A DNA stretch of 64,000 nt from Pseudomonadota bacterium (GTDB taxonomy: Bacteria; Pseudomonadota; Gammaproteobacteria; Steroidobacterales; Woeseiaceae). The stretch is taken from contig JAQCGO010000002.1 of assembly GCA_027618995.1 (NCBI GenBank), positions 1-64,000 of the forward strand, given 5' to 3'. This document shows positions 7,891 to 50,646 of the stretch, piece by piece (the first letter of the stretch is position 1; the number at the start of each line of letters is the position of its first letter). The position numbers and the translations under genes were made by a program. The notes under the pieces were generated by a model. That model saw only the letters and a program-made list of their open reading frames with translations. It did no database searches and was not told the DNA's origin.

Positions 7891-8544
7891 ATGAAGCTAA
7901 CTATACTCCGATGCCTGATCGCGATGAGTGCACTGGGCCTGAACGCGCCCGGGCATGCAGACGATGAGGTAGAACGCCTGGTCGCGGCGATGCTCGGCGA
8001 CACACCGGTTATCGATGACCTGCACGAACTGACCGACACGATCGGCGCCCGGCCAACCGGCTCGGTCGCCAATCTAAGCGCAGTCGCGTGGGCCGCGCAG
8101 AAATTTCGGCAGGCCGAAGTGGCGGTGATGACCGAAGATTTTGCGATGCCTGCGATCTGGGAAGAGAATTTTGTGACCGCGACGATCGCTGGTGACTCGT
8201 CTTTCGGTGTTGGCGCTGTTGCAAAACCCTTTTCGGCTGCCGCGAACGCTCTCGAGGCACCGTTGCTGGATGCCGGTTTCGGCACCGCGGAAGAATTCGA
8301 GCGACTCGGTGACGCAGCATCAGGAGCATGGTTGCTGGTCGAGACACCGGTCCTCGACGATGTCGTCGGTCTGTCCGGACTGTTCAAAGAATATGCGGAT
8401 GCGGTCGCGATCGAAACACGCGCCGCCCTCGCCAATGTGGCGGGCGTTGTGTTCATGTCTTCGCGGCCGAAAAACCTGCTTTTTCGGCACAATGCAGGTG
8501 CGGGCAGTACGAACGAGCTGGTATTGCTCGTCCTCGAGCGGTAA
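7891..8544 (+). CDS. N-terminal fragment of M28 peptidase (signal peptide and PA-like region)
   Basis: A 217-residue open segment. It starts after AGGGGAAGAATA, a good ribosome-binding site, and has a signal peptide ending in GHADDEV (cleavage near residue 23). It contains the TIGARPTGS motif typical of the start of M28 peptidases, followed by the PA-like insertion (VVFMSSRPKNLLFR). It ends at the premature TAA and contains none of the zinc ligands. Confidence 0.7.
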   Translation: MKLTILRCLIAMSALGLNAPGHADDEVERLVAAMLGDTPVIDDLHELTDTIGARPTGSVANLSAVAWAAQKFRQAEVAVMTEDFAMPAIWEENFVTATIAGDSSFGVGAVAKPFSAAANALEAPLLDAGFGTAEEFERLGDAASGAWLLVETPVLDDVVGLSGLFKEYADAVAIETRAALANVAGVVFMSSRPKNLLFRHNAGAGSTNELVLLVLER

Positions 8545-8592
8545 CACGCGCAACGTGCGCTGCGTCTGTTACGTTCGGGCCAACGCCTCAAC

Positions 8593-9363
8593 ATGACAGC
8601 ATCCGTCGGCGCCGTAACACAGGCAGACTACACCGCCACGAATGTTATCGCAGAGATTCCGGGCCGATCGCGTCCGGAAGAAATCGTCCTGTTCGGTGCA
8701 CATCTCGACTCGCAGGACCTTGGGACGGGCGCACTCGACAATGGCGTCAATGTCGTGATGCTGATCAATATTGCACGACAAATCACGCGCCTTGGACTGC
8801 AGCCCGAGCGCACGATTCGATTCGCGTTGTGGAACGGTGAGGAACAGAACCTGGACGGCTCCTGGAAATACACGGAGCAACATGAAAGCGAACTGGACCA
8901 CCACATTGTGGCCGCCTCGTTTGATATAGGCAGTGGCCGCACGACCGGATTTTTTACCGGCGGTCGTCCGGACCTCGTACCCCTGGTCGACAGTTACCTC
9001 GCCCCTGTCGCCGGCCTCGGCCCGTTCCAACAGATCGATATTCCCCTGGTCGGTACGGACAACTTCGACTTCATGGTTGAGGGCGTGTCGAATTTGATCG
9101 CGATCCAGTCAGACGCCAACTATGCCTCGAACTACCATGCCGAGTCCGACACCTTCGACAAGGTTGACCAGCAGCAACTGCGATTGAACTCTGCGATCTC
9201 GGCGGTGGTTATCTGGGGATTCGCCAACGATTCTGCCCGGCTGCCACGCATGACACACGATGAAATCACCACACTGATCAACGCGACCGACCTGGAACAG
9301 CAGATGAAAAACATGGCTGTCTGGGATGGCTGGGCTAACGGCACGCGGGGAAAGCATGACTAG
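8593..9363 (+). CDS. C-terminal catalytic fragment of M28 peptidase
   Basis: A 256-residue open segment in the same frame as the fragment upstream. All expected M28 co-catalytic zinc ligands are present: His and Asp in AHLDS, Asp in GALDNG, the Glu pair in NGEEQ, Asp in FDIGSG and His in NYHAES. The ATG at 8593 has no obvious ribosome-binding site and lies inside a conserved linker, so independent translation is doubtful. If it is made it would stay in the cytoplasm. Confidence 0.65.
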   Translation: MTASVGAVTQADYTATNVIAEIPGRSRPEEIVLFGAHLDSQDLGTGALDNGVNVVMLINIARQITRLGLQPERTIRFALWNGEEQNLDGSWKYTEQHESELDHHIVAASFDIGSGRTTGFFTGGRPDLVPLVDSYLAPVAGLGPFQQIDIPLVGTDNFDFMVEGVSNLIAIQSDANYASNYHAESDTFDKVDQQQLRLNSAISAVVIWGFANDSARLPRMTHDEITTLINATDLEQQMKNMAVWDGWANGTRGKHD

Positions 9364-9453
9364 ATCGGTCTTATCGATGCCGCGTCTGTCCCCATCCAGC
9401 TACTCGTCGATGAGTACCCGAAAACAGGTCTGGCGGCGACACTTCCGGGGAAC

Positions 9454-9529
9454 TGGTGGGAGGCCAGGGAATCGAACCCTGAACCTGTGGATTAAGAGTC
9501 CATTGCTCTACCAATTGAGCTAGCCTCCC
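9454..9529 (-). tRNA. tRNA-Lys (CTT)
   Basis: A 76-nt minus-strand tRNA with acceptor stem GGGAGGC/GCCTCCC (one G-rich end pair), discriminator A and encoded CCA. The anticodon loop ACTCTTAAT gives CTT. The T-arm GGTTCGATTCC is canonical. It lies between the M28 locus and the DUF4440 gene, both on the other strand. Confidence 0.93.
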
Positions 9530-9593
9530 TCAGGACGGGCGATACTATCAGAACGGCGTCAGAACTCGCAAAGATCCTATGGAGATCCTGAAT

Positions 9594-10085
9594 ATGAAAA
9601 TGCAATTCACCATCAGCCTGCTGCTGCTGACGACAATGTCGCTGGCGTCGGATCTCGTGGACGAGGTTCGCTGCCGGGAAATCGGCTTCAGCCGCGCGGC
9701 CGAGTCGCGGGACGCTGAATTGTTCGCGACTTACATTGACCCGGACGCGCGCTTCATTGGCAACAGCGCGCTGCGGGGCCCTGTGGCGGTGGCCTCAGCC
9801 TGGGCAATGTTCTTCGCGGCCGATGGCCCAAGCATCAAGTGGCGACCACAATTTGTCGAAATCCTGGATGACGGCACGCTGGCTTTGACGCGCGGTCCAT
9901 ATCGTTTGGTCATGACAGACGAGCAAGGCGTAAAAACCGAACATTGGGGTACGTTCAATTCCGTGTGGCGAATTCAAGCGGATGGCAGCTGGAAAGTCGT
10001 TTTCGACGCAGGCAGCGACAGCGACGTGCCGCCCGCCGAGACGGTGCGCGCATTGCTCGAGCAGGGCGATGACTGCGACGCATGA
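9594..10085 (+). CDS. Exported DUF4440 / NTF2-like protein
   Basis: A protein of about 163 residues with a signal peptide (MKMQFTISLLLLTTMSLAS). The body matches the SnoaL/NTF2-like DUF4440 pattern: an early helix with FSRAAESRDAELFATYIDPDARF, then ILDDGTLALTRGPYRL and a closing WRIQADGSWKVVFDAGS strand. Such domains are small cone-shaped folds with varied or unknown ligands. I place the start at 9594 because GGAG lies nine bases upstream; an in-frame ATG at 9579 would overlap that site. It stands alone among tRNA genes transcribed the other way. Confidence 0.75.
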   Translation: MKMQFTISLLLLTTMSLASDLVDEVRCREIGFSRAAESRDAELFATYIDPDARFIGNSALRGPVAVASAWAMFFAADGPSIKWRPQFVEILDDGTLALTRGPYRLVMTDEQGVKTEHWGTFNSVWRIQADGSWKVVFDAGSDSDVPPAETVRALLEQGDDCDA

Positions 10086-10091
10086 AAAGGA

Positions 10092-10168
10092 TGGGGTGAG
10101 CGATGGGACTCGAACCCACGACGGCCGGGATCACAACCCGGGGCTCTACCAACTGAGCTACGCCCACC
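10092..10168 (-). tRNA. tRNA-His (GTG)
   Basis: The minus-strand tRNA has the histidine-specific extra G(-1) opposite discriminator C73, acceptor stem GTGGGCG/CGCTCAC, encoded CCA, and anticodon loop TTGTGAT giving GTG. The T-arm GGTTCGAGTCC is normal. It lies 36 bases downstream of tRNA-Arg and is probably cotranscribed with it. Confidence 0.94.
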
Positions 10169-10204
10169 ATTGAAAACACTTTCGACCCGGCTCGCCCCAG
10201 ATGC

Positions 10205-10281
10205 TGGCGCGCCCGGCAGGACTCGAACCTGCAACCGCCGGATTAGAAATCCGATGCTCTGTCCGGTTGAGCTACGGGCGC
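10205..10281 (-). tRNA. tRNA-Arg (TCT)
   Basis: A 77-nt tRNA with acceptor stem GCGCCCG/CGGGCGC, discriminator G and encoded CCA. The anticodon loop TTTCTAA gives TCT. The T-arm GGTTCGAGTCC is canonical. It precedes tRNA-His on the same strand. The Pro-(oxidase)-Arg-His order resembles a dispersed version of the Arg-His-Leu-Pro tRNA cluster of enterics. Confidence 0.94.
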
Positions 10282-10346
10282 AAACATCAAAGCCCTGTTG
10301 TGGCCGGGGTTTCAGGCGTGGATTCTGCGGCGTTTCGTCAACTGCG

Positions 10347-11729
10347 TCAACGGCTTGGCGGCGCCGGATCGATCACTTTGCCGGGATTGAGCAGATTCTT
10401 CGGATCAAGAAGTCGCTTCATACTGCGCATCAGTGCTATTTCGGCGCCTGATCGACTTTCCGACAGCCAGGCTTTTTTCTCGATGCCGATGCCGTGTTCC
10501 GCCGAAATCGAGCCCGACAGGCCCGCGAGACAGCCGTAAACGATCGCATCGCATTCATCATGTGCGGCGCCATCTCCGCAAGGCCTGACAAATATGTGCA
10601 GATTGCCATCCGCGATATGGCCGAATACGAGTCCAACAGCGGCCGCATTCCACGCTGCCAATTTCGCTCGCAGACGCTCGACGTAACTGCTCATGGCTCT
10701 GATCGGCAAACTGACATCGTATAAATAGGCCGGCAGCACCGGCTCGAAGTCCTCGCGCACGACCCACAATGCGGCACGCTCCGATTCAGACTTGGGCAGA
10801 ATCGCATCGATGATATCGCCGGATTCCAGGGCACGCTCCAGTATTGCCTCAAAGCGATCCGTGTCGGCATCCGGATCTGCGCCCTGCGCTTCGACCAGCA
10901 CATAGTAAGGATAGTCGGGCGCCATCGGAGCCGAGTGTCCTGCATCGCCGGTGACAGCAGAAAAATACTCGCCCCACATGACTTCGTACGCACTCAGGGT
11001 ACCGGCCAGATCGGATTGCATCGACTTCAGCATGCGCACAACGGCATCAAAGGATGTAGCTGCGAACAAAGCCGTCTGCCTGCTTTTTGCCAGGGGGAAA
11101 AGCCGGATGACTACTCGCGTCACGATGCCGAGCGTTCCTTCACTGCCGATGAACAATTGCTTCAGGTCGTAACCCGCATTGTTCTTCAACATCCGGTTCA
11201 TTGAGGAAATGATGGTGCCGTCCGCGAGTACGACCTCGAGGCCGAGAACGAGATTGCGCATCATGCCGTAACGCAACACGTTGATGCCGCCTGCGTTGGT
11301 TGCGACCGTGCCGCCGATCGTGCAGCTGCCGCGAGCACCGAGGTCGAGCGGCAACAGGAAACCGCGTTCTGCGAGCTGTTCCTGCACGACCTGCAACACC
11401 GCACCAGCCTGCACCACGGCCACGCCATCCATCTCATCCACGGATTCAAGCGCCTGCATCCGTTCGAGCGAGATAATGACATCGTCTTTTGATGAGACCG
11501 CGCCGGCCACGACGCCGGTGAGTCCGCCCTGTACGACAACACTCTGATCGTGCGCATGGCACAGGCGCAGGATGTCGCTCAGCTCCTGCGTGGAGCCTGG
11601 CCGAACCAGCGCTTTGGCCGCCGTCGGAGAAGGATCCCAGTAGGACGTCGCGCGGCTCGAAATATCGGCGCCCGTAACGACGCCACCGTCTTTGACGAGC
11701 TCTTTTAGCCGATCGACGATATTGGTCAA
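10347..11729 (-). CDS. FAD-linked 2-hydroxyacid dehydrogenase/oxidase (GlcD / D-LDH type)
   Basis: A 460-residue VAO-family flavoprotein. The N-terminal FAD-binding PCMH domain shows RPGSTQELSDILRLCH, VVQGGLTGVVAGA and the GARGSCTIGGTVATNAGG stretch. The C-terminal FAD-oxidase domain has GHIADGNLH and SISAEHGIG, whose histidines are typical of metal-assisted 2-hydroxyacid dehydrogenases (D-lactate, glycolate, D-2-hydroxyglutarate). The length fits the family. The substrate cannot be told from sequence alone. It sits between tRNA-Pro upstream and tRNA-Arg downstream, with no obvious pathway partner. Confidence 0.88.
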   Translation of the reverse strand: MTNIVDRLKELVKDGGVVTGADISSRATSYWDPSPTAAKALVRPGSTQELSDILRLCHAHDQSVVVQGGLTGVVAGAVSSKDDVIISLERMQALESVDEMDGVAVVQAGAVLQVVQEQLAERGFLLPLDLGARGSCTIGGTVATNAGGINVLRYGMMRNLVLGLEVVLADGTIISSMNRMLKNNAGYDLKQLFIGSEGTLGIVTRVVIRLFPLAKSRQTALFAATSFDAVVRMLKSMQSDLAGTLSAYEVMWGEYFSAVTGDAGHSAPMAPDYPYYVLVEAQGADPDADTDRFEAILERALESGDIIDAILPKSESERAALWVVREDFEPVLPAYLYDVSLPIRAMSSYVERLRAKLAAWNAAAVGLVFGHIADGNLHIFVRPCGDGAAHDECDAIVYGCLAGLSGSISAEHGIGIEKKAWLSESRSGAEIALMRSMKRLLDPKNLLNPGKVIDPAPPSR

Positions 11730-11756
11730 GAGAAGCTGGAATCCGTGCGTGAAAAT

Positions 11757-11833
11757 TGGTCGGGGCAGGGTGATTCGAACACCCGACCCTCTGCTCCCAA
11801 AGCAGATGCGCTACCAGGCTGCGCCATGCCCCG
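11757..11833 (-). tRNA. tRNA-Pro (TGG)
   Basis: A 77-nt minus-strand tRNA with acceptor stem CGGGGCA/TGCCCCG, discriminator A and encoded CCA. The anticodon loop TTTGGGA gives TGG. It lies just upstream of the FAD-oxidase gene, in the same orientation. Confidence 0.94.
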
Positions 11834-11928
11834 ACACCAGTGCTACTGGTCCTGCGAGTTCCGGGCCGGCCGGGTCCCGCGGGGGCACGATCATAAAGCC
11901 GGCACCCGGGGTAGTCAATTTAGGCGGG

Positions 11929-11988
11929 TCGCCGGCATGGCCGCCTCCCACAAGTCACGACCGGGTCGCCGGCATGGCCGGCTGCGGC
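11929..11988. repeat. REP-like palindromic doublet, copy A
   Basis: Two direct copies of a TCGCCGGCATGGCCG-type unit (11929-11951 and 11966-11988) are separated by 14 bases. Each unit is itself nearly palindromic around GCCGGCATGGCCGGC and can form a GC-rich hairpin. The same doublet occurs at 38845-38891 and 51486-51543. It lies between tRNA-Pro and the cyclophilin gene. Confidence 0.7.
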
Positions 11989-12009
11989 CGTTCTTGCTAT
12001 CGTGGCGGC

Positions 12010-12597
12010 ATGAAAAAATTGCTGCTCATACTGTTGCTGGCCGTGACGAGTGGCACCACGGTCACGGCGCAGGATGTACCAGCGCATCCCTACGTCGAAA
12101 TCGTAACGACCATGGGCACCATCATCCTCGAACTCGACGGCAAGCAGGCGCCGCTGACGGTCGGGCATTTTTTGCACCTGGTCGACGCCGGCTTCTACGA
12201 CGGCACTATTTTTCACCGGGTCATTCCGGGATTCATGGCACAGACCGGCGGCCACACACCTGACCTGAAGTTAAAAGAAGACTCACGCAGCATCCCGAAC
12301 GAGTCCGGTAACGGGCTGAGCAATGTGCACGGCACAGTCGCCATGGCACGTACCCGAGATCCACACTCGGCGAATTCTCAGTTTTTCGTCAATGTCGCCG
12401 ACAACACTCGACTCGACCCCGGCAAGCAGGCAGGCGGCGGCAGCTGGGGTTACACCGTATTTGGCAACGTCATACAAGGCATGGACGTCGTCGACCAGAT
12501 CGTCAACGTAGCGACCGGACCGCAAGGCAGCTTTGCGTCAGATGTGCCGGTCATCCCAATCGTGATCAAGAAAATGTCACGTTACACATTCGAGTAG
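12010..12597 (+). CDS. Peptidyl-prolyl cis-trans isomerase, cyclophilin type, exported
   Basis: A 195-residue cyclophilin that catalyses proline isomerisation in protein folding. A signal peptide (MKKLLLILLLAVTSGTTVTA) predicts a periplasmic location, as for PpiA. Cyclophilin motifs follow in order: VEIVTTMGTIILEL, FYDGTIFHRVIPGFMAQTG with the catalytic Arg, GTVAMAR, NSQFFVNVADN and GYTVFGNVIQGMDVVDQI. The start at 12010 was chosen because the signal peptide begins there; the longer frame upstream crosses the REP repeats and tRNA. The lpxH gene follows by 5 bases. Confidence 0.93.
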   Translation: MKKLLLILLLAVTSGTTVTAQDVPAHPYVEIVTTMGTIILELDGKQAPLTVGHFLHLVDAGFYDGTIFHRVIPGFMAQTGGHTPDLKLKEDSRSIPNESGNGLSNVHGTVAMARTRDPHSANSQFFVNVADNTRLDPGKQAGGGSWGYTVFGNVIQGMDVVDQIVNVATGPQGSFASDVPVIPIVIKKMSRYTFE

Positions 12598-12602
12598 CTG
12601 CA

Positions 12603-13328
12603 ATGAGCACATTGTTTATTTCTGATTTGCATCTGGAAGCCGAGCGCCCCGACATCGGCAACCAGTTTATCGAGTTTCTCAAGACTGAAGCGATGGAAGC
12701 AGACGATCTGTACATCCTCGGCGACCTGTTCGAAGCCTGGGTCGGTGATGATGATCCGAATACGCACTACGCGAAAATCAAAATGGCGATACGCAAAGTC
12801 GTCGATAAAGGTGTTCCCGTGTACTTCATGCACGGTAACCGCGATTTCATGATCGGACGGCGATTTACCAATGAGACCGGTGTCGTAATTCTGACAGACC
12901 CCTACCCCGTCGACATGTACGGGCAAAAAGCCCTGCTCAGCCACGGCGATGTCTTATGCACTGACGATGCTCAATATCAGCGGGTTCGTTTGATGACCCG
13001 CGACCCGGACTGGCAGGCGTCGATCCTAGCCAAACCCCTCAAGGAACGCCTGCGAATCGCGGAAGAGGCGCGCCGCCAAAGCCTTGAACGAACCTTGAAC
13101 ATGACCATGAATATCATGGACGTCAATCAGGATGCGGTCAGGCGCGTTATCACCGAGCATGGCGTTGATGTGCTTTTGCACGGCCATACGCACCGGCCCG
13201 GCATCCACAGCATCGATCTCGGCAACCGCAAGGCGCAGCGCATAGTGCTCGGTGACTGGTACCGGCAAGGCAGCGTGTTGCGTTGGGATTTGCGCGGCCC
13301 GAAGCTGCGCGAGATGCCGCGACCTTAG
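12603..13328 (+). CDS. lpxH: UDP-2,3-diacylglucosamine diphosphatase (lipid A synthesis)
   Basis: A 241-residue calcineurin-like phosphoesterase that splits UDP-2,3-diacylglucosamine to lipid X in the Raetz pathway at the inner membrane. All metal-ligand motifs are visible: SDLHLEAERP, GDLFEAWVGDD, HGNRDFMIG, LSHGDVLCTDD and LLHGHTHRPG. The length is typical for LpxH. The gene is paired with the upstream cyclophilin, a common gammaproteobacterial neighbour (the ppiB-lpxH arrangement). Confidence 0.96.
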   Translation: MSTLFISDLHLEAERPDIGNQFIEFLKTEAMEADDLYILGDLFEAWVGDDDPNTHYAKIKMAIRKVVDKGVPVYFMHGNRDFMIGRRFTNETGVVILTDPYPVDMYGQKALLSHGDVLCTDDAQYQRVRLMTRDPDWQASILAKPLKERLRIAEEARRQSLERTLNMTMNIMDVNQDAVRRVITEHGVDVLLHGHTHRPGIHSIDLGNRKAQRIVLGDWYRQGSVLRWDLRGPKLREMPRP

Positions 13329-13390
13329 CCCGGTGGCCCGGAGTGGAAGCGGAATTGCGGGTCCGGTTCTGTAATCAGTCGCGCCTCAAG

Positions 13391-13939
13391 TTATCGTAGT
13401 TCCTGCAGCCGCCGATCGATGTCTTCCGCGCTTGCGCCACTTTCACGATGGGCGAACGCAATATAGTGCTCGAAGTGACGCGCTTCAGATGCCAGGAGTC
13501 CGTTGTAAAACCTGCCGAGTTGGGGCGGTAACTTTGGTGCAAGTTGAGCAAATCGTTCGCAGGAGCGTGCCTCGATCAGCGCGCCGATCAACAGCAGGTC
13601 CAACAGCTTTTGCGGTTCATCCGGGCGTACTGCTTTGCGCAGTTCCCCGGCATAGCGCGACGCACTCAGCCGCTCGAAAGCCACGCCTCTGTCGAGCATG
13701 ATCGATCGCACTTGCTCGAAATGCCGTAATTCCTCGCGCGCCAGGCGGGACATGCGCTGCACGAACTGCGGACGATCCGGGTAGCGATACAGGAAGCCCA
13801 GCGCTGTTGACGCCGCCTTGAGCTCGCAGTTCGCATGATCCAGCAACAACTCCGGAATTCGTGTTTGCGCCACGCGAGTCCATGCCGCCGGGGTCGCAAC
13901 CGCAAGGAATTCCGCTATCGCAACGGGCACTAGAGCCAC
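13391..13939 (-). CDS. miaE: tRNA 2-methylthio-N6-isopentenyladenosine-37 hydroxylase MiaE
   Basis: A 182-residue carboxylate-bridged diiron enzyme that hydroxylates ms2i6A at position 37 of tRNAs. The ferritin-like helices carry ligand motifs LLLDHANCELKAAS, LAREELRHFEQV, GALIEARSCERF and SEARHFEHYI. Start is GTG at 13939, and the first codons overlap the last ones of the upstream kinase frame, showing tight translational linkage. The length matches the short form found in pseudomonads rather than the longer Salmonella form. Confidence 0.92.
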   Translation of the reverse strand: MALVPVAIAEFLAVATPAAWTRVAQTRIPELLLDHANCELKAASTALGFLYRYPDRPQFVQRMSRLAREELRHFEQVRSIMLDRGVAFERLSASRYAGELRKAVRPDEPQKLLDLLLIGALIEARSCERFAQLAPKLPPQLGRFYNGLLASEARHFEHYIAFAHRESGASAEDIDRRLQELR

Positions 13940-14616
13940 TCATCGACCTCTGTGGCGCTTTGCAGTCGATCCTCAGGTTGCTTCGCGAGCATCATATTCA
14001 GCAGCGCCTGGTACCTGGCAAAACGCGGCGGAAATAACGGCACCGGCGCCTTTGCATGCAGGTAAATAATGCCCATTGCCGATTCCGCCCGAAACGGCTT
14101 CGTGCCGGTCAGCATTTCGAAAAAAATAACCCCAAGACTATAGATGTCACTGCGCAGGTCGATCTCGTTGCCATGTCCCTGCTCAGGACTCATGTAATAG
14201 GGCGTACCGAAGATTTCTCCACTATCGGTGATCTCCATTTCGAGGCGCATGCGTTTTGCCAGCCCAAAATCGATGAGTGCCAGCGAATCGTCACGTCGCA
14301 GCATGATATTGCCCGGCTTCAGATCGCGGTGCAGTATGCCGACCGCGTACACGCGCGCCAGCGCACTCGAAATCTGCCGCAGGTAGCGCACGGCGTCAGG
14401 CTCATTGATGCCGCGACCTATGCGTTGCTTCATGTCTCCGGCGTCCAGGTATTCCATCGCAATATGCGCATGGTCATCACCGACACCGAGATCGTAAATC
14501 TTGACGATATTCGAGTGATCGATGCCGGCGATCAGCTCGTATTCCTGAAGAAAACGATCGAACGCCCCGATACTATCCGCGACGTCTGGTACCTGGCGCA
14601 GCACTTTCAAGATCAT
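13930..14616 (-). CDS. Ser/Thr protein kinase domain (C-terminal part of interrupted fusion)
   Basis: A 228-residue open segment from the first available ATG. It has the catalytic Lys at position 4 (MILKV), the HRDLKPGNIM catalytic loop (residues 96-105), IDFGLAK (DFG at 116-118) and MSPEQGHGNEIDLRSDIYSLG, so the catalytic residues of a Hanks-type kinase are intact. The glycine-rich loop lies upstream of this ATG, in codons that need translation through the TGA, and is degenerate (SASNHSSV instead of GxGxxG). The frame ends at the domain boundary and overlaps miaE. Confidence 0.7.
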   Translation of the reverse strand: MILKVLRQVPDVADSIGAFDRFLQEYELIAGIDHSNIVKIYDLGVGDDHAHIAMEYLDAGDMKQRIGRGINEPDAVRYLRQISSALARVYAVGILHRDLKPGNIMLRRDDSLALIDFGLAKRMRLEMEITDSGEIFGTPYYMSPEQGHGNEIDLRSDIYSLGVIFFEMLTGTKPFRAESAMGIIYLHAKAPVPLFPPRFARYQALLNMMLAKQPEDRLQSATEVDEWL

Positions 14617-14766
14617 TTCGCGTCCGTTCGATTCCTTTTCGGCCAGGTATACGGATGAATGATTCGACGCACTGAGCTTCTTGATGAAGCGGTAGCCACG
14701 AATAAGCGGATGAATCCCGGTGCGTTCATCACCGACGAACAGCGACCCGGTCGACGCTACCCGCTG

Positions 14767-15135
14767 TCACGAATTCAGGACATCAGTCAGACGAATGATC
14801 AATTGTTTGTGGCGCACATCATCGCGCAGGAAAAAGCCATCGGCGCCCAGTCGCGCAACCGTGACCTCTTCTTCCGCGGCGCCAAAATAGACGACGGCCA
14901 GGAATCCCTGCGTACGCAGGAATTGTTTCAGCACCTGCGTACCACCACGATCGCCGAGCTGGTTGCCGAGCAGGATCATGTCGTTTCCAGCGCCCGAAAA
15001 TTCAGTGGGCAGATGGCCGGCCACTGTTGGATCGAATTCCGCAATGATCGCATCCGGCCAGTGTACGGAAAGGTGGTGCGAAAGCAGTTTTCGAAAGTCC
15101 GATTGACCGTCGATGATCATGAACTTGATGGTCAT
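14767..15135 (-). CDS. Atypical (pseudo-)receiver domain protein
   Basis: A 122-residue CheY-like domain starting MTIKFMIIDGQSDFRKLL. The position of the phospho-acceptor Asp is Gly57 (MILLGNQLGD instead of the usual LLLDYxLG). The switch Lys is replaced by Arg (ADGFFLRDD). It therefore should not be phosphorylated in the usual way. It ends at the in-frame TGA that separates it from the kinase. It lies 26 bases downstream of purF, in the same orientation. Confidence 0.7.
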   Translation of the reverse strand: MTIKFMIIDGQSDFRKLLSHHLSVHWPDAIIAEFDPTVAGHLPTEFSGAGNDMILLGNQLGDRGGTQVLKQFLRTQGFLAVVYFGAAEEEVTVARLGADGFFLRDDVRHKQLIIRLTDVLNS

Positions 15136-15161
15136 CAGAAAGCGCCCAAAGCGGGCCGATA

Positions 15162-17221: not shown

Positions 17222-17276
17222 CAGAGCTGTCGGTTAGTCTGCTATCGGGGGGCGAGTGGCTGAAGATTCTACCAGA

Positions 17277-17852: not shown

Positions 17853-17896
17853 ATGGTTGTCCCGGCAAGGCGAGTATAACGCATCTTGCAGCGCGC

Positions 17897-19162: not shown

Positions 19163-19164
19163 GA

Positions 19165-38901: not shown

Positions 38902-39288
38902 TCAGGTGGCGCCTTGCAGGCGCTTGATCAGCGAGCGCAGGAAAACCTTGTTGAAGCGCAGCTGGCACGACGAGGAAACCTGCTCCATCAGGGTCGAACT
39001 GACACGCAGGATCGTGACCGCGCCGTCCGCCTGGATGGAGGCCTGGCGTTTGGCACCACGCACATAGCTGGTTTCACCGAAACAGTCGCCGTTCGATAGC
39101 GTGCCCAGATTCTTGCCATTCGCCTGCACACGCACACTGCCAGTGACAATGATGTAGAAACGATCATCGATCTCGCCTTCACGAACGATGTCTTCGTTGT
39201 CTTTGTACTCATGCCAGTCGGATGCGCGCAGCACTTCCCAGATTTCTGCGTGTGAGAATTCGTGGAAGAAGGTCAGCTTGCGCAGCAC
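38902..39288 (-). CDS. Cyclic nucleotide-binding domain fragment (C-terminal part of interrupted kinase)
   Basis: A 128-residue open segment, GTG at 39288, in the same frame as the kinase. It is a Crp-type cNMP-binding domain: FSHAEIWEVLRASDWHEY, VREGEIDDRFYIIVTGSVRV, LSNGDCFGETSYVRGAKRQ (phosphate-binding cassette region) and VTILRVSSTLMEQ. No ribosome-binding site is visible at the GTG, which lies inside the domain's first helix. Confidence 0.65.
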   Translation of the reverse strand: MLRKLTFFHEFSHAEIWEVLRASDWHEYKDNEDIVREGEIDDRFYIIVTGSVRVQANGKNLGTLSNGDCFGETSYVRGAKRQASIQADGAVTILRVSSTLMEQVSSSCQLRFNKVFLRSLIKRLQGAT

Positions 39289-39489
39289 ATCGAAGTGTTC
39301 CTAGTTATCGAGGCTGTCGTACTTGGTGCGCAGGTCCTTGTAGACCCGCGTCAGTTCCGCCACCATTGATGCGCCACTGGCGATGCGCTTGTCCGGATCC
39401 TTGAGCATTGTCGTCACAACGACGTTCTCCAGTGCTTCGGGCAGATCATCGCGATAGGTGTGTATCGGCGGCGGCGTCGCATAAACGAT

Positions 39490-40194
39490 CTAGTGCAGCA
39501 GCTTGGACAGGTTATCGGCGCGGAACGGCCGGAACCCGGTCAACAGTTCGTACATGACAGCGCCCAGCGAATACAGGTCGGAACGATTGGTCAGCTCTTC
39601 CGACTGTACCTGCTCGGGCGACATGTAGCTCGGCGAACCGGCTATGCCCTCGATGCGCGATACTTCGGAGCCGGTAACGATGGCAATACCAAAGTCAATG
39701 ATACGAACATCGTTGTCGATCGTGAGCATGACGTTGGATGGCTTGATATCGCGATGGATGACACCGCGACCGTGTGCATAGTGCAGTGCCTTGGCACATT
39801 TGTAGATGATCTCTACGACATCGTCGATGCGCAGCAGGTTGTCGGGCCGGCAATAGGCCGCGAGCGTGCGGGCGCCCTGAATATGCTCGGTAACAACGTA
39901 GTACTTGCCGTCTTCCTCGCCGGCATCGTAGATCGGCATGATGTTCGGATGCTGCAGCATGCCAACCATATGCGCTTCGTTGAAAAACATCTTGCGTGAG
40001 ACTTTGGCGCGATCCGCGTCCGAATCCTCTTCGATGTTGTAGACCTTGATGGCGACATCGCGACGATAGTACGGATCGTGTGAGAGGTAGACATCACCCG
40101 TACTACCCTTGCCAATTTTGTTGATAATGACGTACTTGCCAATCTTGGCCGGTACGAGACTCTGGCGTTTGATTTCTGCAGCGGGGCTGGCCAT
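39490..40194 (-). CDS. Ser/Thr protein kinase fragment (N-terminal part of interrupted gene)
   Basis: A 234-residue open segment. The kinase motifs are canonical: glycine loop IGKGSTGDVYL (residues 27-37), catalytic Lys50 (VAIKVY), HRDIKPSNVM (147-156), IDFGIAI (DFG 167-169) and MSPEQVQSEELTNRSDLYSLG. It ends at the first TAG in the C-lobe (LTGFRPFRADNLSKLLH), missing the final helices that normally stabilise the fold. The start is 12 bases downstream of the pgpA stop codon. Confidence 0.75.
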   Translation of the reverse strand: MASPAAEIKRQSLVPAKIGKYVIINKIGKGSTGDVYLSHDPYYRRDVAIKVYNIEEDSDADRAKVSRKMFFNEAHMVGMLQHPNIMPIYDAGEEDGKYYVVTEHIQGARTLAAYCRPDNLLRIDDVVEIIYKCAKALHYAHGRGVIHRDIKPSNVMLTIDNDVRIIDFGIAIVTGSEVSRIEGIAGSPSYMSPEQVQSEELTNRSDLYSLGAVMYELLTGFRPFRADNLSKLLH

Positions 40195-40206
40195 TTTCTC
40201 TCACGT

Positions 40207-42060: not shown

Positions 42061-42091
42061 GCTGTTCCATGCCGGATTCCAGGCAACGTCG

Positions 42092-42565
42092 CTAGTCGAT
42101 GCGACGCAGCAGATTGACCATCTCGATAACGGCTAGAGTTGCCTCTTCGCCCTTGTTGCCGGCTTTCGTGCCGGCACGCTCAATAGCCTGTTCAATCGTA
42201 TCCACAGTCAGTACGCCGAACCCGATCGGGATACCGTGTTTTTGCGCTGCCGCTGAAAGCCCGCGCATGCACTCGCCGGCAACATAGTCGAAGTGCGGCG
42301 TCGCACCGCGAATTACCGCACCGAGGGCGATGATCCCGTTACAGCGCCGGCTTGCCGCGAGCTTTTCGACGGCGAGTGGCACTTCGTACGCGCCGGGAAC
42401 ACGAATGATTTCGATATCGGCATCCACTGCACCATGCTTGTGCAGGCACCGCACCGCGGCACCAAGCAGCGAATCGACAATAAAGTCATTGAACCGCGAC
42501 GCAACGATGCCGAAATGTGCATCGCGAACGACGAGGTCGCCTTCGGTCGTCTTGATCTTGTCCAT
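42092..42565 (-). CDS. ribH: 6,7-dimethyl-8-ribityllumazine synthase
   Basis: A 157-residue lumazine synthase that condenses a pyrimidine with 3,4-dihydroxybutanone phosphate, the penultimate step of riboflavin synthesis. Motifs: FGIVASRFNDFIVDSLL, VPGAYEVPLAVEKLA, GAVIRGATPHFDYVAGECMRG with the catalytic His, and FGVLTVDTIEQAIERAGTKAGNKG. It overlaps the ribBA stop by one base. Confidence 0.96.
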   Translation of the reverse strand: MDKIKTTEGDLVVRDAHFGIVASRFNDFIVDSLLGAAVRCLHKHGAVDADIEIIRVPGAYEVPLAVEKLAASRRCNGIIALGAVIRGATPHFDYVAGECMRGLSAAAQKHGIPIGFGVLTVDTIEQAIERAGTKAGNKGEEATLAVIEMVNLLRRID

Positions 42566-43710: not shown

Positions 43711-44341
43711 AACCATTCGCCTTCAAGAATTCCATGGACAATCCGCCTTCATCTTTCAGCAGCAGGCGCTCGATATAACGTGCCAGCAAATCTACTTCGA
43801 TATTGACGAGTGTGCCCACTGAGTAACTACCAATTATCGTAGTCTCGGCCGTATGTGGGATGATATTCAAGTCGATTGTGTTTGCGGATACTGCATTGAT
43901 GGTAAGACTGACACCATCCACACACACCGAGCCCTTCCGCGCAACATAACGCGCAAAATCCGGCGCGATTTCGACGCGTAATCGTATGGAGCGCGCATCC
44001 TTGCTGAGCGCGGTCACTTTCCCCAGGCAATCGACATGGCCGCTCACCAGGTGTCCGCCGAGGCGATCAGCGAGGCTCAATGACGGCTCGAGATTGACCT
44101 TCGAGCCGACGGCCAGCCCACCGAGCGAAGTCACGGCCAGTGTCTCGGTCGATACATCGGTATCAAATCCATCGGCACGCAACGCCGTCGCCGTCAGGCA
44201 CGCGCCATTCACCGCGATGCTCTCGCCGACGGTGTAGGAGGAAAATGGCAAGCCCGTGCAACGCACGGTCAGGCGCACGTCGCCGGCAATTCGTTCGATC
44301 GCCGTGATGTTGCCGACTGCCTGCACGATGCCGGTAAACAT
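43703..44341 (-). CDS. ribE: Riboflavin synthase alpha subunit
   Basis: A 212-residue enzyme that dismutates two lumazines to riboflavin. It starts MFTGIVQAVGNI and has two lumazine-binding repeats, the first with VNGACLTATAL and GGHLVSGHVDCLGKV, the second with VDGVSLTINAV and NIIPHTAETT. The start at 44341 is the family N-terminus; the longer frame to 44668 is antisense shadow of ribD sequence in another frame. It follows ribD by four bases and overlaps ribB. Confidence 0.96.
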   Translation of the reverse strand: MFTGIVQAVGNITAIERIAGDVRLTVRCTGLPFSSYTVGESIAVNGACLTATALRADGFDTDVSTETLAVTSLGGLAVGSKVNLEPSLSLADRLGGHLVSGHVDCLGKVTALSKDARSIRLRVEIAPDFARYVARKGSVCVDGVSLTINAVSANTIDLNIIPHTAETTIIGSYSVGTLVNIEVDLLARYIERLLLKDEGGLSMEFLKANGYV

Positions 44342-44345
44342 GGGT

Positions 44346-45446
44346 CTAGTTAGCCGGCAGCGCAGTGATGCGCAGGTCGTCGCCAAGCTCGGTCCGGTCG
44401 ACGATACGCAGGGCCTGCCGATCCACGAGCTGCGACCAGCCTGGCGTTTTGAACATGCCCAGGGTCTCGCTGCCCATGAAGTGCGGCGCCTGATAGATAA
44501 TGAATTCATCCACGAGGCCCTGCGCCAGCATTTGACCGGCGAGTGCAGGCCCGGCCTCGACCAGCAGGTCATTGATTTCACGCTTCCCAAGATCTCTGAG
44601 CACTGCCGCAAGATCGACGAGACCGTGTGCTCCCGCCACGCAGATGACCTCAGCGCCGGCCACCTCAAGCGCGGCGGCGCGGCGCCTATCCGAACAGTAA
44701 AGCAGCGTTTTACCGGGCAATCCCAGCATTTCTGCCGTCAATGGCATACGCAATTCACTGTCGAGGACGACCCTCAGCGGTTGTCTTCCGTGCCGGTTCA
44801 GGGTGGCATCGCGTACCGTCAATGCAGGGTTGTCAGCCAGCACTGTACCGATGCCGGTCATCACCGCACCCGAGCTGGCGCGCAGGCGCTGAACATCGTC
44901 CCGGGCTTGTTCGCCCGTGATCCAGTGACTTTGCCCGTCGCTCATCGCAATGGCTCCGTCCAGGCTGCAGGCGATTTTGAGTCGAACGCGCGGTCGGCCA
45001 CGCAGGATACGGCTCAGGAATCCGGCCAACAGCTGGTCGACCTGGTCGCTGAGCAAACCGCTGCGCACCGTGATGCCGGCATCGTTCAGTGCCTGCATTC
45101 CCTTGCCGTCGACTTTCGGGTTGGGGTCGCCACGCGCAATGATGACCTCACGAATCCCGGCCGCGATGAGCGCATCGCTGCAAGGTGGCGTACGGCCATG
45201 ATGCGAACAGGGCTCGAGCGTGACGAACGCCGTCGCGCCACGGGCATTGTCGCCAGCCGCCTCAAGCGCCCTGATTTCGGCGTGCGCCTCGCCGGCGACC
45301 TCGTGCCAGCCTTCGCCGACAACGGCACCGTTTTTCACCAGCACACAACCCACCATGGGATTGGGGTGCGCGCTGAACAGGCCGTTTTTCGCGAGGTCCG
45401 CGGCTCGCTGCATGAATGCGCTTTCGCTGTTAGTGAACTCAGGCAT
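44346..45446 (-). CDS. ribD: Bifunctional pyrimidine deaminase / reductase RibD
   Basis: A 366-residue two-domain enzyme. The N-terminal deaminase has the zinc site HAEIRALEAAG and TLEPCSHHGRTPPCSDALI. The C-terminal NADPH-dependent reductase contains PRVRLKIACSLDGAIAM, DNPALTVRD and LLVEAGPALAGQML. Both riboflavin steps 2 and 3 are thus covered. The length is normal. It begins 6 bases after nrdR, the usual order. Confidence 0.96.
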   Translation of the reverse strand: MPEFTNSESAFMQRAADLAKNGLFSAHPNPMVGCVLVKNGAVVGEGWHEVAGEAHAEIRALEAAGDNARGATAFVTLEPCSHHGRTPPCSDALIAAGIREVIIARGDPNPKVDGKGMQALNDAGITVRSGLLSDQVDQLLAGFLSRILRGRPRVRLKIACSLDGAIAMSDGQSHWITGEQARDDVQRLRASSGAVMTGIGTVLADNPALTVRDATLNRHGRQPLRVVLDSELRMPLTAEMLGLPGKTLLYCSDRRRAAALEVAGAEVICVAGAHGLVDLAAVLRDLGKREINDLLVEAGPALAGQMLAQGLVDEFIIYQAPHFMGSETLGMFKTPGWSQLVDRQALRIVDRTELGDDLRITALPAN

Positions 45447-45452
45447 CAGTGC

Positions 45453-45968
45453 CTACTTTTTCTTGCCAAACAACTCGGGCAACAGTGACATCTGCTCGCG
45501 ACTCGCCGCCGTTTCCGAAATACGCTGCAAACGTTTTATTTCTTCTTCAAATTCCGTGACGTCCTGAAACCGCCGGTAGACCGACGCAAAACGGACGTAG
45601 GCAATTTCATCCAGCGCACGCAATTCTTCCATGACCAGGTCGCCAACGAGACGCGACGGCACTTCACGCTCGCCCATCGTGCGCAGGCGGTGGATCAACC
45701 GTGCGACAGCTTCTTCCAGTTCATCGCTTGGCACCGGTCGTTTTTCCAGCGCCCGCATCATGCTGTTGCGAAGTTTGTTTTCGTCAAACGGCTGACGTGT
45801 GCTGTCGTTCTTGACCAGCTTTGGCATCACCAGTTCGGCCGACTCGAAGGTCGTGAAACGTTCATTGCAATCCAGGCATTGCCTGCGACGACGGATCTGC
45901 ATGCCATCACCCGCCAGGCGCGAGTCAATAACCTTGGTCTCTTCGTGACTGCAGAACGGACAGTGCAT
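45453..45968 (-). CDS. nrdR: Transcriptional repressor NrdR
   Basis: A 171-residue repressor of ribonucleotide reductase genes. The N-terminal zinc ribbon has cysteines in [12 protein letters not shown] and [16 protein letters not shown]. The ATP-cone domain (about 48-138) begins [19 protein letters not shown] and binds ATP/dATP. The length is slightly longer than E. coli NrdR (149) because of an extended tail. It lies 12 bases downstream of glyA. Confidence 0.96.
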
Positions 45969-45980
45969 GAGAAATAGGAA

Positions 45981-47234
45981 TCAAACGTAGACGGGAAAGC
46001 GCTTGCACAGGGCGAGCACCTGGCCGCGAACACGCTTATTGGTCTCTTCGTTATCGAGATCGTCGAGTATATCGGCTATCCAACCGCTTAGCTCCCGCAC
46101 TTCGTCAGCGCCAAAACCGCGGGTCGTTATTGCGGGCGTGCCCAGGCGCAGGCCACTGGTTACAAACGGCGACTGCGGATCGTTGGGCACTGCATTCTTG
46201 TTCACCGTGATGTTGGCCCTGCCCAGAGCGGCATCGGCATCCTTGCCCGTAATGCCCTTGTCGATCAGGCTGACCAGCATCAGGTGGTTATCGGTTCCAC
46301 CCGAGACGATCGGGTATCCGCGATCGACAAGTACCGCGGCCATGACCTTCGCGTTGCTGCAGACCTGCGCCTGGTAGTCCTTGAACGCAGGCGACATCGC
46401 TTCCTTGAGCGCGACGGCCTTCGCGGCGATGACATGCATCAGCGGTCCGCCCTGCGTACCGGGGAAGACCAGCGAGTTGAACTTTTTGGTCAGTTCGTCG
46501 TTCTTGCGTGCCAGGATCATGCCGCCACGCGGACCGCGCAAGGTCTTGTGCGTGGTGGTAGTAACGACGTCGGCCACCGCGATCGGATTCGGGTAGTGGC
46601 CGGTTGCCACCAACCCGGCGACGTGCGCCATGTCCACCATCAGGTATGCGCCGACACTGTCGGCTATCTGTCGAAATCGCTGCCAGTCGACCACCCGCGA
46701 GTAGGCCGAGAACCCCGCAACGATCATGCGCGGCTTATGCTCGGTGGCGAGCTGCTGCACCTGGTCGTAATCGATCTCGCCCGTCGCGGCCACCAGCCCG
46801 TATTGATAAGCGTTGTACAACTTGCCGGAAAAATTGACCTTGCTGCCGTGGGTCAGATGCCCTCCCTCGGCCAGGCTCATGCCCAGTACCGTATCGCCGG
46901 CCTCGAGCAGCGCCATGTAAACCGCCGCATTGGCCTGTGAGCCCGAGTGCGGCTGCACGTTCGCATAGTCCGCACCGAACAGCTTTTTCGCGCGCTCGAT
47001 CGCCAGGCTCTCAACGTCATCGACGAACTCACAGCCACCGTAATAGCGCTTGCCCGGATAGCCCTCGGCGTACTTGTTGGTTAATACCGAGCCCTGTGCG
47101 GCCAGAACCCGCGGACTGGCGTAGTTCTCGGACGCGATCAGCTCAATGTGCTCTTCCTGGCGTCGATTTTCGTTGGCTATGGCTTTTGCTACCTCAGGAT
47201 CGAAGGCGGCAAGGGTCGTATTTGTGTCAAACAT
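45981..47234 (-). CDS. glyA: Serine hydroxymethyltransferase
   Basis: A 417-residue PLP enzyme that interconverts serine and glycine with tetrahydrofolate. The PLP Lys is in [16 protein letters not shown] (about 229). [39 protein letters not shown] and [14 protein letters not shown] are family marks. Start at 47234 (MFDTNTTL) follows GGAG at 12 bases and gives the usual length; a frame seven codons longer begins at 47255. It heads the glyA-nrdR-rib run. Confidence 0.97.
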
Positions 47235-47282
47235 CAGGGGGGAGGCTCCGGGCAAGGCGTTGCAAGGACGCGATGTTACTGC

Positions 47283-48233
47283 CTAGCCGGCCGCGACGAA
47301 AGACTGAACGACACGTGTCCAGGCGCGCGCCAGGTTCTGCCGGTTGTAACCGCCGCCGCCGGCAGCGACGATCCGGCCAGCGCAATGCCGGTCGGCAATG
47401 CGACACAGCGCGGCCGCGGCATTGGCATGCGCCTGTTCCGTATAACAAAGGTGCGTGATCGGGTCGCCCTCGAGGCTGTCCGCACCGCACTGAAAAATAA
47501 TGAATTCCGGCGCTGCGTGCTCGAGATAGCTCTCAACACGCGCCCACTCACGGTCGAAATCCGCATCTTTCGCGCCGGGTGCGATCGGAATATTGAGCTT
47601 GGTGCCGCGCGCCCTGCCGGTGCCGGTCTCCTCGGCAGCGCCCGTGCCCGGATACAGAAAGCGGCCGTCCTCGTGGATATCGGCGAACAGCAGGTCAGGA
47701 TCGTCTTCAAAGCCATAAAACACGCCATCACCGTGGTGCGCGTCAATATCGACGTAGGCGATCCGCCGGAGGCCGTGGTTCCTGCGCAGATATTCGACCG
47801 CCACACCGCAATCATTGAATACACAAAACCCGGCAGCCTTATCACGTGCCGCGTGGTGCAAACCTGCGATGGGCACGAAGGCGCGTTTGCAGTCACCGTG
47901 CATCACGGCATCAACCGCCGCGAGCGTGGTGCCCACAACGTCGCAGGCGGCCTCAAATATGCCGGCGACCGCCGGCGTGTCGCCGTCATCGAGGTAGCCC
48001 CGTCCCTCGGCTGATTTCAGCGACACCAGGTTGATGTAGTCCGCAGTGTGAAACAACAGCAGCTCATCGACACCGGCGCGATGCGGCCGGCCGTAGCTGA
48101 TGGCATCGCCCAGTCCTGCAGCGGCGAGCTCGTTCTGGAAGACGTCGTGCCGGTCAAGGCCGAACGGGTGTTTGTCACCAAACCCGTAATTGGCCAGCGC
48201 ACTTCCCTTGTAGACCAGGACCGAATCGCTCAT
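47283..48233 (-). CDS. Histone deacetylase / AcuC-APAH superfamily protein
   Basis: A 316-residue zinc-dependent deacetylase-like protein. The active-site features are present: the HH dyad in AGLHHAARDKAAGFC, zinc ligands in YVDIDAHHGDGVFY and the later Asp in FQCGADSLEGDP, and the GGGGYNRQNLARAWT tail. Bacterial members act on acetylpolyamines, acetoin-linked acetyl-CoA synthetase or unknown acetylated proteins; the substrate here is unknown. It is divergent from ettA. Confidence 0.88.
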   Translation of the reverse strand: MSDSVLVYKGSALANYGFGDKHPFGLDRHDVFQNELAAAGLGDAISYGRPHRAGVDELLLFHTADYINLVSLKSAEGRGYLDDGDTPAVAGIFEAACDVVGTTLAAVDAVMHGDCKRAFVPIAGLHHAARDKAAGFCVFNDCGVAVEYLRRNHGLRRIAYVDIDAHHGDGVFYGFEDDPDLLFADIHEDGRFLYPGTGAAEETGTGRARGTKLNIPIAPGAKDADFDREWARVESYLEHAAPEFIIFQCGADSLEGDPITHLCYTEQAHANAAAALCRIADRHCAGRIVAAGGGGYNRQNLARAWTRVVQSFVAAG

Positions 48234-48310
48234 GCCTTGCGACTTCTTGTTGTTTGCTATCGCCGCAGCATACCGGATAATGCGCCCTGCATAACTACCA
48301 GCGGACTGTA

Positions 48311-49984
48311 ATGGCGCAATACATTTACACCATGAATCGCGTGGCCAAGGTTGTCCCGCCGAAGCGGTTCATAATTAAGAATATTTCCCTGTCATTTTTC
48401 CCCGGCGCCAAAATTGGCGTGCTCGGGCTCAATGGCTCCGGCAAGTCCACCGTACTCCGCATCATGGCGGGACTTGACACCGAGTTCGAGGGCGAAGCGC
48501 GGCCGCAGCCCGGCATCAATATCGGCTTTTTGCCGCAGGAACCGGAGCTCGACGCGAGCAAGGACGTGCGCGGCAATGTCGAGGAAGGCGTCGCAGCCAC
48601 CAAGGCGCTGCTGACCCGCTTCGATGAGATCGCGATGCAGTTCGCGGAGCCGATGAGCGACGATGAGATGAATGCCCTGCTTGAAGAACAGGGCAAGTTG
48701 CAGGATGCGATTGAGACGGCCGGCGCATGGGAACTGGACCGCAAGCTCGAAATCGCCGCCGACGCGCTGCGCCTGCCACCCTGGGATGCGGACGTTACGA
48801 AAATTTCTGGCGGTGAAAGACGCCGCGTTGCTTTATGCCGCCTGCTGCTGTCGCAGCCGGACATGCTGTTGCTGGACGAGCCGACCAACCATCTCGATGC
48901 CGAATCGGTAGCGTGGCTTGAGCGTTTTCTCGCTGAATACCCGAGTACAGTCATTGCGGTGACCCACGATCGCTACTTCCTCGACAATGTAGCGGGCTGG
49001 ATACTCGAACTCGACCGCGGCCAGGGTATTCCCTGGGAGGGCAACTACTCCTCGTGGCTCGAGCAGAAGAGCAACCGCCTCGCGAATGAAGAGGCCGGTG
49101 AGAAAGCTCGCCAGAAAGCCATGCAGACGGAGCTCGAGTGGGTGCGCTCGAACCCGAAAGGCCGCCAGGCCAAGTCCAAGGCACGCTTGCGTCAGTTCGA
49201 GGAAATCTCATCGATCAATTACCAGAAGCGCAACGAAACCAATGAAATTTACATTCCGCCCGGGCCGCGCCTCGGCGACATCGTCATCGAAGTTACCGGC
49301 CTGAAAAAGGGCTTTGGCGACAAGTTGCTGATCGACGATCTGAGTTTTCAGTTGCCTGCGGGCGGCATAGTGGGTGTCATTGGTCCGAACGGCGCCGGCA
49401 AGACCACTCTGTTTCGCATGATTACGGGCAGCGAGAAGCCTGATGCCGGCACAATCCGCCTCGGCGATACCGTGCAGGTTTCGAGCGTTGACCAGTCACG
49501 CGACAGCCTCGATGACAACAAGACCGTATGGGAAGAAGTCTCGGACGGATTGGACCTGATCAAGGTCGGCAACTACGAGACACCGTCACGGCAGTATGTC
49601 GGACGATTCAATTTTCGTGGCGCCGATCAGCAGAAGAAGATCGGTATCCTGTCGGGCGGCGAACGCAACCGCGTACACCTTGCCAAGACGCTGAAGTCCG
49701 GTGGCAACCTGCTGTTGCTCGACGAGCCAACCAATGACCTCGACGTCGAAACTTTGCGTGCGCTCGAAGAGGCGCTGCTGGAGTTTCCGGGCTCTGCGGT
49801 GGTGATCTCTCACGATCGCTGGTTTCTGGATCGTATCTGCACACATATCCTGGCATTCGAGGGTGACTCGGTAGTGACCTGGTTTGCCGGCAACTACGCC
49901 GACTACGAAGCGGACAAAAAACGCCGTCTGGGTGATGACGCGGATAACCCGCATCGCATCAAGTACAAACGCCTCGAGGGTTAG
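48311..49984 (+). CDS. ettA: Energy-dependent translational throttle protein EttA
   Basis: A 557-residue ABC-F ATPase that binds the ribosomal E site and restrains elongation when ATP is low. Two ABC domains have Walker A GLNGSGKST and GPNGAGKTT, signatures SGGERRRVALCRLLL and SGGERNRVHLAKTL, and LLLDEPTNHLDAESV and LLLDEPTNDLDVETL. The P-site interaction linker lies between them (about 245-315). There are no transmembrane segments. It starts VPPKRFIIKNISLSFFPGAKIG as in the E. coli protein (555). Confidence 0.96.
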   Translation: MAQYIYTMNRVAKVVPPKRFIIKNISLSFFPGAKIGVLGLNGSGKSTVLRIMAGLDTEFEGEARPQPGINIGFLPQEPELDASKDVRGNVEEGVAATKALLTRFDEIAMQFAEPMSDDEMNALLEEQGKLQDAIETAGAWELDRKLEIAADALRLPPWDADVTKISGGERRRVALCRLLLSQPDMLLLDEPTNHLDAESVAWLERFLAEYPSTVIAVTHDRYFLDNVAGWILELDRGQGIPWEGNYSSWLEQKSNRLANEEAGEKARQKAMQTELEWVRSNPKGRQAKSKARLRQFEEISSINYQKRNETNEIYIPPGPRLGDIVIEVTGLKKGFGDKLLIDDLSFQLPAGGIVGVIGPNGAGKTTLFRMITGSEKPDAGTIRLGDTVQVSSVDQSRDSLDDNKTVWEEVSDGLDLIKVGNYETPSRQYVGRFNFRGADQQKKIGILSGGERNRVHLAKTLKSGGNLLLLDEPTNDLDVETLRALEEALLEFPGSAVVISHDRWFLDRICTHILAFEGDSVVTWFAGNYADYEADKKRRLGDDADNPHRIKYKRLEG

Positions 49985-49992
49985 GAGCAACA

Positions 49993-50469
49993 ATGAATCT
50001 GTTGATCGCCAGCGCAGTTTGCGCACTAATCGCCTTGCTGTTCCTGCGTGCGATGCTGCGTCAGTTGCGGCGCGGGCGCGTGTTGCGGGCGAGCGGTTCG
50101 GCGGCTTTCTGCGCGGCGACCGCGGCGCTCGGCACGGCCGGGGTAATGATGTTCATCAGTTACCTCGGCTATCAGCGCCTGACGGCTGAGCAACTGGTTG
50201 CCGTTATCGAGTTCTCGAAATCCGTACCCGAGGAGTACACCGCACGCCTCATGATCGACGGCGAACTCGATCGTCTGTTGCCACTGCGGGGCGATGAGTG
50301 GCAACTCGATGCGCGCATGCTGACGTGGAAACCGCCGGCCACCATTCTCGGTCTGGAACCCGTTTACCAGCTGGAACGATTGAGCGGGCGTTATACCTCG
50401 GTAGACCGCGAACGCAGCGAGCCACGCACCGTCCATTCCCTGGCCGAAGAACGGCCGCTCGATCTCTGA
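49993..50469 (+). CDS. N-terminal fragment of the interrupted membrane protein
   Basis: A 158-residue open segment with two hydrophobic helices (LLIASAVCALIALLFLRAM and a second around ATAALGTAGVMMFISYLGY), then a soluble region with GDEWQLDARMLTWKPPATI and RLSGRYTSVDRERSEPRTV. It ends RPLDL followed by TGA. The sequence resembles small proteins annotated as efflux-pump-like, without evidence for transport. Confidence 0.65.
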   Translation: MNLLIASAVCALIALLFLRAMLRQLRRGRVLRASGSAAFCAATAALGTAGVMMFISYLGYQRLTAEQLVAVIEFSKSVPEEYTARLMIDGELDRLLPLRGDEWQLDARMLTWKPPATILGLEPVYQLERLSGRYTSVDRERSEPRTVHSLAEERPLDL

Positions 50470-50646
50470 AGCCTGGCGCGAAACTTTCCAAAGTTTACGC
50501 CCGGCATGGATGCCTATTACGGCACGGCAACCTACCTGCCGCTCGCGGATGGAGCACGGTTTCGAATCACGCTCAGTCGCGATGCCCTGATCGCACGACC
50601 TGTGAATGACCCTGCACGGGAAGCCATCGGCGACTGGGGCCAGTAA
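49993..50646 (+). pseudogene. Small membrane protein of unknown function interrupted by an in-frame TGA
   Basis: The 218-codon frame from 49993 to 50646 has TGA at 50467-50469 (codon 159) and continues without shift as SLARNFPKFTPGMDAYYGTA and TYLPLADGARF to a TAA. Homologues I know of this family read LDLWALARR at this point, so the TGA stands where a Trp (TGG) is expected; TGG to TGA is a single G-to-A change. The N-terminal two transmembrane segments and the first half of the soluble domain are upstream of the stop, the conserved YYGTATYLPLADGA motif downstream. It begins 8 bases after ettA. Confidence 0.75.

Follow-up and report, generated by a model that had tools for sequence, protein, structure and literature searches.

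Excess of in-frame stops in the genome that carries the window

The window analysed here, the first 64 kb of the 199-kb contig C63 (JAQCGO010000002.1) of a draft genome from an uncultured, Woeseiaceae-like bacterium of marine sediment, contains genes whose reading frames are broken by single in-frame stop codons and otherwise remain open. The reading that we tentatively favour is that the lineage is burdened with very recent mutations, most of them nonsense, in probably dispensable genes. Over the 141,336 bp of this genome (the host genome) that are covered by at least two relatives, we count 12 interrupted genes with a total of 14 in-frame stops and 2 frameshifts, while nine relatives yield a single stop call and no frameshift in 1,090,504 covered bp. 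That call, a two-source stop in the sister genome (L339:14287), is located before the point where the aligned purL begins and was rejected as a gene-start artefact; with it excluded, the probability that all 14 stops fall in the host genome under equal rates is approximately 7e-14. No relative compared at these sites shares a host stop, and at every counted stop the gene is open in two or more of the relatives compared.

The host genome consists of 2,538,047 bases in 76 contigs (completeness 97.4%, contamination 0.13%). Eighty relatives were kept for comparison, every one of them titled a metagenome-assembled genome and many of them Woeseiaceae; the closest found among those kept, 4_1_May_SF_Bin74 (G060), was used as sister, with a DNA identity of approximately 83% across 6.7 kb at the kinase locus, where its kinase gene is whole. 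Besides the window we examined 20 stretches (397,629 bases) of the same genome, sampled non-randomly by contig convenience, for a total of 461,629 bases including the window; in 12 of the 20 stretches no part is covered by at least two relatives. Gene calling relied on a codon model. To be counted, an interruption had to be shown by the orthologues of at least two other genomes and to have conserved flanks. In the relatives this requirement of two sources removed 8 stop calls and 9 frameshift calls that had one source each, 5 of the 8 stop calls deriving from two over-extended open reading frames (ORFs) of genome G011; a host stop in a BNR/sortilin-like gene (L088:2537), backed by the sister alone, is likewise outside the 14. 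Two other procedures were abandoned: a stop scan based on coding potential alone, which gave 41 candidate stops in 461,629 bp of the host against 182 in 1,871,698 bp of the relatives and thus no host excess, was dropped as a count, and a BLAST search with all ORFs of at least 80 aa was swamped by shadow frames and replaced by the codon-model gene set.

An earlier note on this DNA had listed five in-frame stops in the window, with frames otherwise open and no frameshifts. All five are present in the sequence, the frame keeps coding beyond each of them, and relatives keep the genes open; as a full count, five falls short by one, since a TAA in a MiaE-family gene had been overlooked. The absence of frameshifts holds inside the 64-kb window, where none was found, but not genome-wide, as two were found, one of them approximately 420 bp beyond the window. 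The interrupted genes of the window and their stops are:

7891..9363, + strand: M28-family peptidase gene of 490 codons, of which codon 218 is an in-frame TAA; PF04389 is matched in the second piece
8542..8544, + strand: in-frame TAA of the M28 gene; Glu in the five relatives compared
13331..13939, - strand: MiaE-family (tRNA hydroxylase) gene; a relative's copy matches PF06175 nearly to the end
13391-13393, - strand: in-frame TAA of the MiaE-family gene, cutting off about 21 conserved C-terminal residues
13933..15135, - strand: receiver-like and Ser/Thr kinase fusion (REC-STK); PF00069 at 2.7e-45
14767..14769, - strand: in-frame TGA of the REC-STK gene
38903..40194, - strand: Ser/Thr kinase and cyclic-nucleotide-binding fusion (STK-cNMP) with two TAGs; PF00027 is matched in the last piece
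39490..39492, - strand: in-frame TAG of STK-cNMP; residue identical across the seven relatives compared
39301..39303, - strand: in-frame TAG of STK-cNMP; residue identical across the seven relatives compared
49993..50643, + strand: 217-codon gene of unknown family behind ettA; no Pfam match
50467..50469, + strand: in-frame TGA of the 217-codon gene

The search for homologues of the window genes took in 59 further genomes of the order, of which 36 belong to the same genus. Five of the same-genus genomes contain an M28 orthologue at 70% or more, and all five copies are stop-free, one being short at a contig end. The REC-STK gene is full length and stop-free in 28 of the 36 same-genus genomes, and partial but stop-free in 4 more; its receiver match is weak (16 bits, below the Pfam cut-off), and the first ATG of its kinase piece (14616) lies downstream of the position at which we presume the Gly-rich loop to be. 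For STK-cNMP, whose first piece has a kinase match that stops at profile position 202 of 263, the same 36 genomes divide into 25 with a full-length, stop-free gene, 1 with an interrupted gene (G033), 4 with a partial one and 6 without a close match. The 217-codon gene is stop-free in 22 of the 36. The interruption in G033 is at G033:C17:41640-42891, and the STK-cNMP match in G059, which belongs to another family, contains a stop.

The interrupted genes beyond the window, named from the copies of relatives, are:

L087:121-1632 (contig C74): ClpB gene, interrupted by three in-frame stops
outside the window: DegS/HtrA-like protease gene, interrupted; its match is below the NCBIfam cut-offs for DegS
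outside the window: PilS-type sensor kinase gene, interrupted
outside the window: 2',3'-cyclic phosphodiesterase gene, interrupted
outside the window: DUF2062 protein gene, interrupted
outside the window: GlgX gene with one stop and one frameshift
L077:420 (C63, approximately 64,420): CitE/HpcH-type lyase gene with a frameshift; open in relatives

Selection on the interrupted genes

The interrupted genes are constrained as strongly as the intact ones. The median ratio of nonsynonymous to synonymous divergence (dN/dS) against the sister is 0.082 for 8 interrupted genes and 0.075 for 71 intact genes (Mann-Whitney P = 0.87); 4 of the 12 interrupted genes are without a usable sister comparison, and dS to the sister is approximately 1. 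Individual values are 0.086 for the M28 gene, 0.017 for STK-cNMP with its two stops, and 0.029 for ClpB with its three. Constraint this similar in the two groups indicates that the stops are young: the data support the view that the interruptions are recent and that purifying selection has not yet relaxed in the 8 genes testable against the sister. The proposal of very recent mutation in the earlier note is thus supported, both by this unrelaxed constraint and by the fact that none of the compared relatives shares a stop.

Mutation or assembly error

Avoidance of essential genes, scarcity of radical missense changes and clustering within genes modestly favour real mutations over random assembly error. 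With regard to the first, we counted as essential, with E. coli as the guide, 29 genes that over their whole lengths comprise 12,322 of the 47,112 covered codons (26%). None of the 14 stops falls in them (P = 0.014 by stops, 0.036 by genes), and with 4 auxotrophy genes added to the set the probabilities become 0.005 and 0.015, respectively. Since only 20 of the approximately 87 covered genes outside the window are annotated, the codon share of essential genes is a lower bound. Stops also fall in the same gene more often than expected at random (4 such pairs among 11, P = 0.029), as random errors ought not to do.

The scarcity of radical changes was evaluated at 14,001 columns that are invariant in at least three outgroups. 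At these columns the host has 6 stops and the sister none; single-step radical missense changes number 14 in the host and 6 in the sister, while random substitution is expected to produce approximately 3 to 8 radical changes per stop; given 6 stops, random error ought to have left several-fold more radical missense than 14 against the sister's 6. The associated probabilities are 0.017-0.34 if all 14 radical changes are counted, and 0.002-0.09 if only the excess over the sister is; when all 14 stops enter a variant of the test, the corresponding ranges are 0.016-0.63 and 0.0008-0.17. A first missense test, which took the missense changes of host and sister as equal, seemed strong against random error, but was undercut by the synonymous counts (213:281 and 308:379, host to sister): as there are fewer synonymous changes on the host branch, this test loses most of its strength, and only the radical-change test is relied on.

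Several observations weigh against the stops being real. The protease DegS is essential in E. coli, and with the interrupted DegS/HtrA-like gene included in the essential set, the signal of avoidance drops to P = 0.03-0.16. When radical changes of any step number are counted alike, host and sister hardly differ (21/223 versus 16/232, Fisher P = 0.39). There is a mild excess of missense on the host branch (missense 843:870 versus synonymous 308:379, host to sister), a direction that random error and unpurged load alike would give. Moreover, real decay usually yields as many frameshifts as stops, or more; the 14:2 ratio of stops to frameshifts has P = 0.002 if frameshifts make up half of the events, and 0.20 if they make up a quarter. 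Low-quality reads, on the other hand, are reported mainly to raise internal stops and not frameshifts, and internal-stop counts to follow assembly error, in the portions of Cooley and Wright 2024 (PMC11017572) drawn upon here.

Because an excess of stops over frameshifts is this published signature of error, we give real weight to the possibility that the stops are an artefact of low coverage, poor reads or strain mixing; they would then be the visible part of approximately 0.2-0.3% wrong bases in the draft genome, as estimated from stop density, and the genes would be whole in the cells. The resemblance to the assembly-borne pseudogenes described in the same source (PMC11017572) extends to the restriction of the stops to one assembly among the ten compared and to the otherwise normal appearance of the genes, interrupted and intact genes being equally constrained. 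The host genome is unlike them in that essential genes are partly avoided (0 of 14), stops are clustered and radical missense changes are few; each of these differences is modest and dependent on the assumed error spectrum. On this evidence we consider an artefact a substantial possibility, though a somewhat less likely one than real young mutations.

Other explanations

If the stops are in the cells, they might be tolerated, with readthrough allowing the interrupted genes to work at a reduced level. Selection that is unrelaxed even in the genes with two and three stops would agree with this, and there is a published precedent for bacterial genes that carry in-frame stops at dN/dS under 1 (PMC7918605). 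The tRNA genes and release factors of the host speak against it. The 42 tRNA genes that were found all carry ordinary anticodons, and none has CTA, TTA or TCA, although in a draft genome one may be missing; release factors RF1 and RF2 are both of full length, and their GGQ and specificity motifs look canonical by eye. In the host, 8.8% of genes are followed by a back-up stop within three codons, versus 4.9-12.9% in relatives, so there is no enrichment. TAA, TAG and TGA all occur, each facing several residues, and no common motif around the stops was seen by eye, no motif statistic having been run. Finally, 14 stops among approximately 47,000 codons would be far too few for long-standing neutrality. 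The readthrough suggested in the earlier note thus finds no positive evidence, and we regard tolerated stops as improbable. We judge equally improbable the narrower form in which the lineage has newly become stop-tolerant, through readthrough arising outside anticodons and release factors or through looser tRNA or ribosome accuracy; if it were true, nonsense changes would pile up near-neutrally while missense changes stay under purifying selection.

Old pseudogenes, or a genome-wide erosion that is already well advanced, are still less credible. The host genome is smaller than the sister's (2.54 Mb versus approximately 3.3 Mb, the latter figure being without a completeness estimate), and GlgX carries both a frameshift and a stop, but constraint is intact in the 8 testable interrupted genes and coding density is high in the 21 examined pieces of the host genome (0.80-0.96, mean 0.91). 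With early erosion of the kind known in Sodalis-type symbionts the host genome shares, as far as the material drawn upon here goes, the many young interrupted genes and the size reduced relative to the sister; it differs in its high coding density and few frameshifts, and association of the bacterium with a host organism was neither found nor sought. Genome sizes within the genus range from approximately 1.5 to 5.1 Mb, and the two smallest same-genus genomes (G003 and G010) have 2 matches each to the kinase query, all of them weak.

Least credible of all is a mutator or cytosine-deamination history of the lineage, which the earlier note had listed among several options on the ground that all its stops can be explained by C:G-to-T:A changes: four of its five, and the sixth as well, are indeed single such transitions from the sister's codon, but the stop at 8542 needs a transversion because the five compared relatives have Glu, several others beyond the window require a transversion or two changes, MutS is full length (853 aa, with a match to TIGR01070 over 1-839 of 840; no search was made for ung, mutY or mutL), frameshifts are few, the share of G:C>A:T transitions at fourfold sites is 0.37 on the host branch versus 0.45 on the sister's, and synonymous changes are fewer, not more, on the host branch.

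Relation to known systems and significance

The young load of nonsense mutations that we favour can be placed among phenomena already described. In-frame stops in bacterial genes under purifying selection have been found to be mostly short-lived, in the manner of polymorphisms (Belinky et al. 2021, PMC7918605), a pattern, in the portions of that paper drawn upon, that fits a young load without special decoding. The host genome resembles those cases in its single in-frame stops, its dN/dS under 1 and the short life of the stops on the scale of polymorphism. It differs in that Belinky et al. (PMC7918605), in the same portions, focus on stops shared between genomes, while here they are unshared and concentrated in one genome of the genus. 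Nonsense alleles of recent origin are a known kind, as are in-frame stops in genes under purifying selection; their density here and their restriction to one of ten compared genomes are unusual. No literature on Woeseiaceae pseudogenes was found by title or abstract among the matches listed, and a term search of the text of a Woeseiales paper (PMC7082342) gave no mention of pseudogenes.

Under this reading each stop would end translation and leave a truncated, probably dead product. The sampled clone would be without STK-cNMP and REC-STK signalling, the M28 peptidase, ClpB, PilS, GlgX, the CitE/HpcH-type lyase and others, and the null alleles would be either transient in the population, before purging, or the beginning of gene loss in a lineage with a small genome. 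Should the stops be real, they offer a view of gene loss just after its onset in a sediment bacterium, with approximately 100 in-frame stops per Mb covered before any visible loss of constraint and none in the nine compared relatives. If they are artefacts, the genome misleads readings of gene content (for example, that the organism 'lacks ClpB and two kinases'), and counts of in-frame stops against relatives become a cheap quality check for draft genomes.

Signalling genes and the remainder of the contig

The loss of a phospho-signalling network, which had been suggested by the kinases among the interrupted genes of the window and by a protein with an FHA domain, is not shown by these data. 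The 12 interrupted genes are mixed in function, and 3 of them encode protein kinases (two Ser/Thr kinases and one sensor histidine kinase); of the six kinase matches in the genome that exceed the Pfam cut-off, two lie in interrupted genes. The FHA protein is encoded at 55946-57130 and matches the TagH family, which is associated with type VI secretion; no other type VI genes were named among the window proteins scanned. Past approximately 65.5 kb of contig C63 the gene order that the window has in common with relatives ends, and the next 120 kb have few matches to the stretches of the relatives that were compared.

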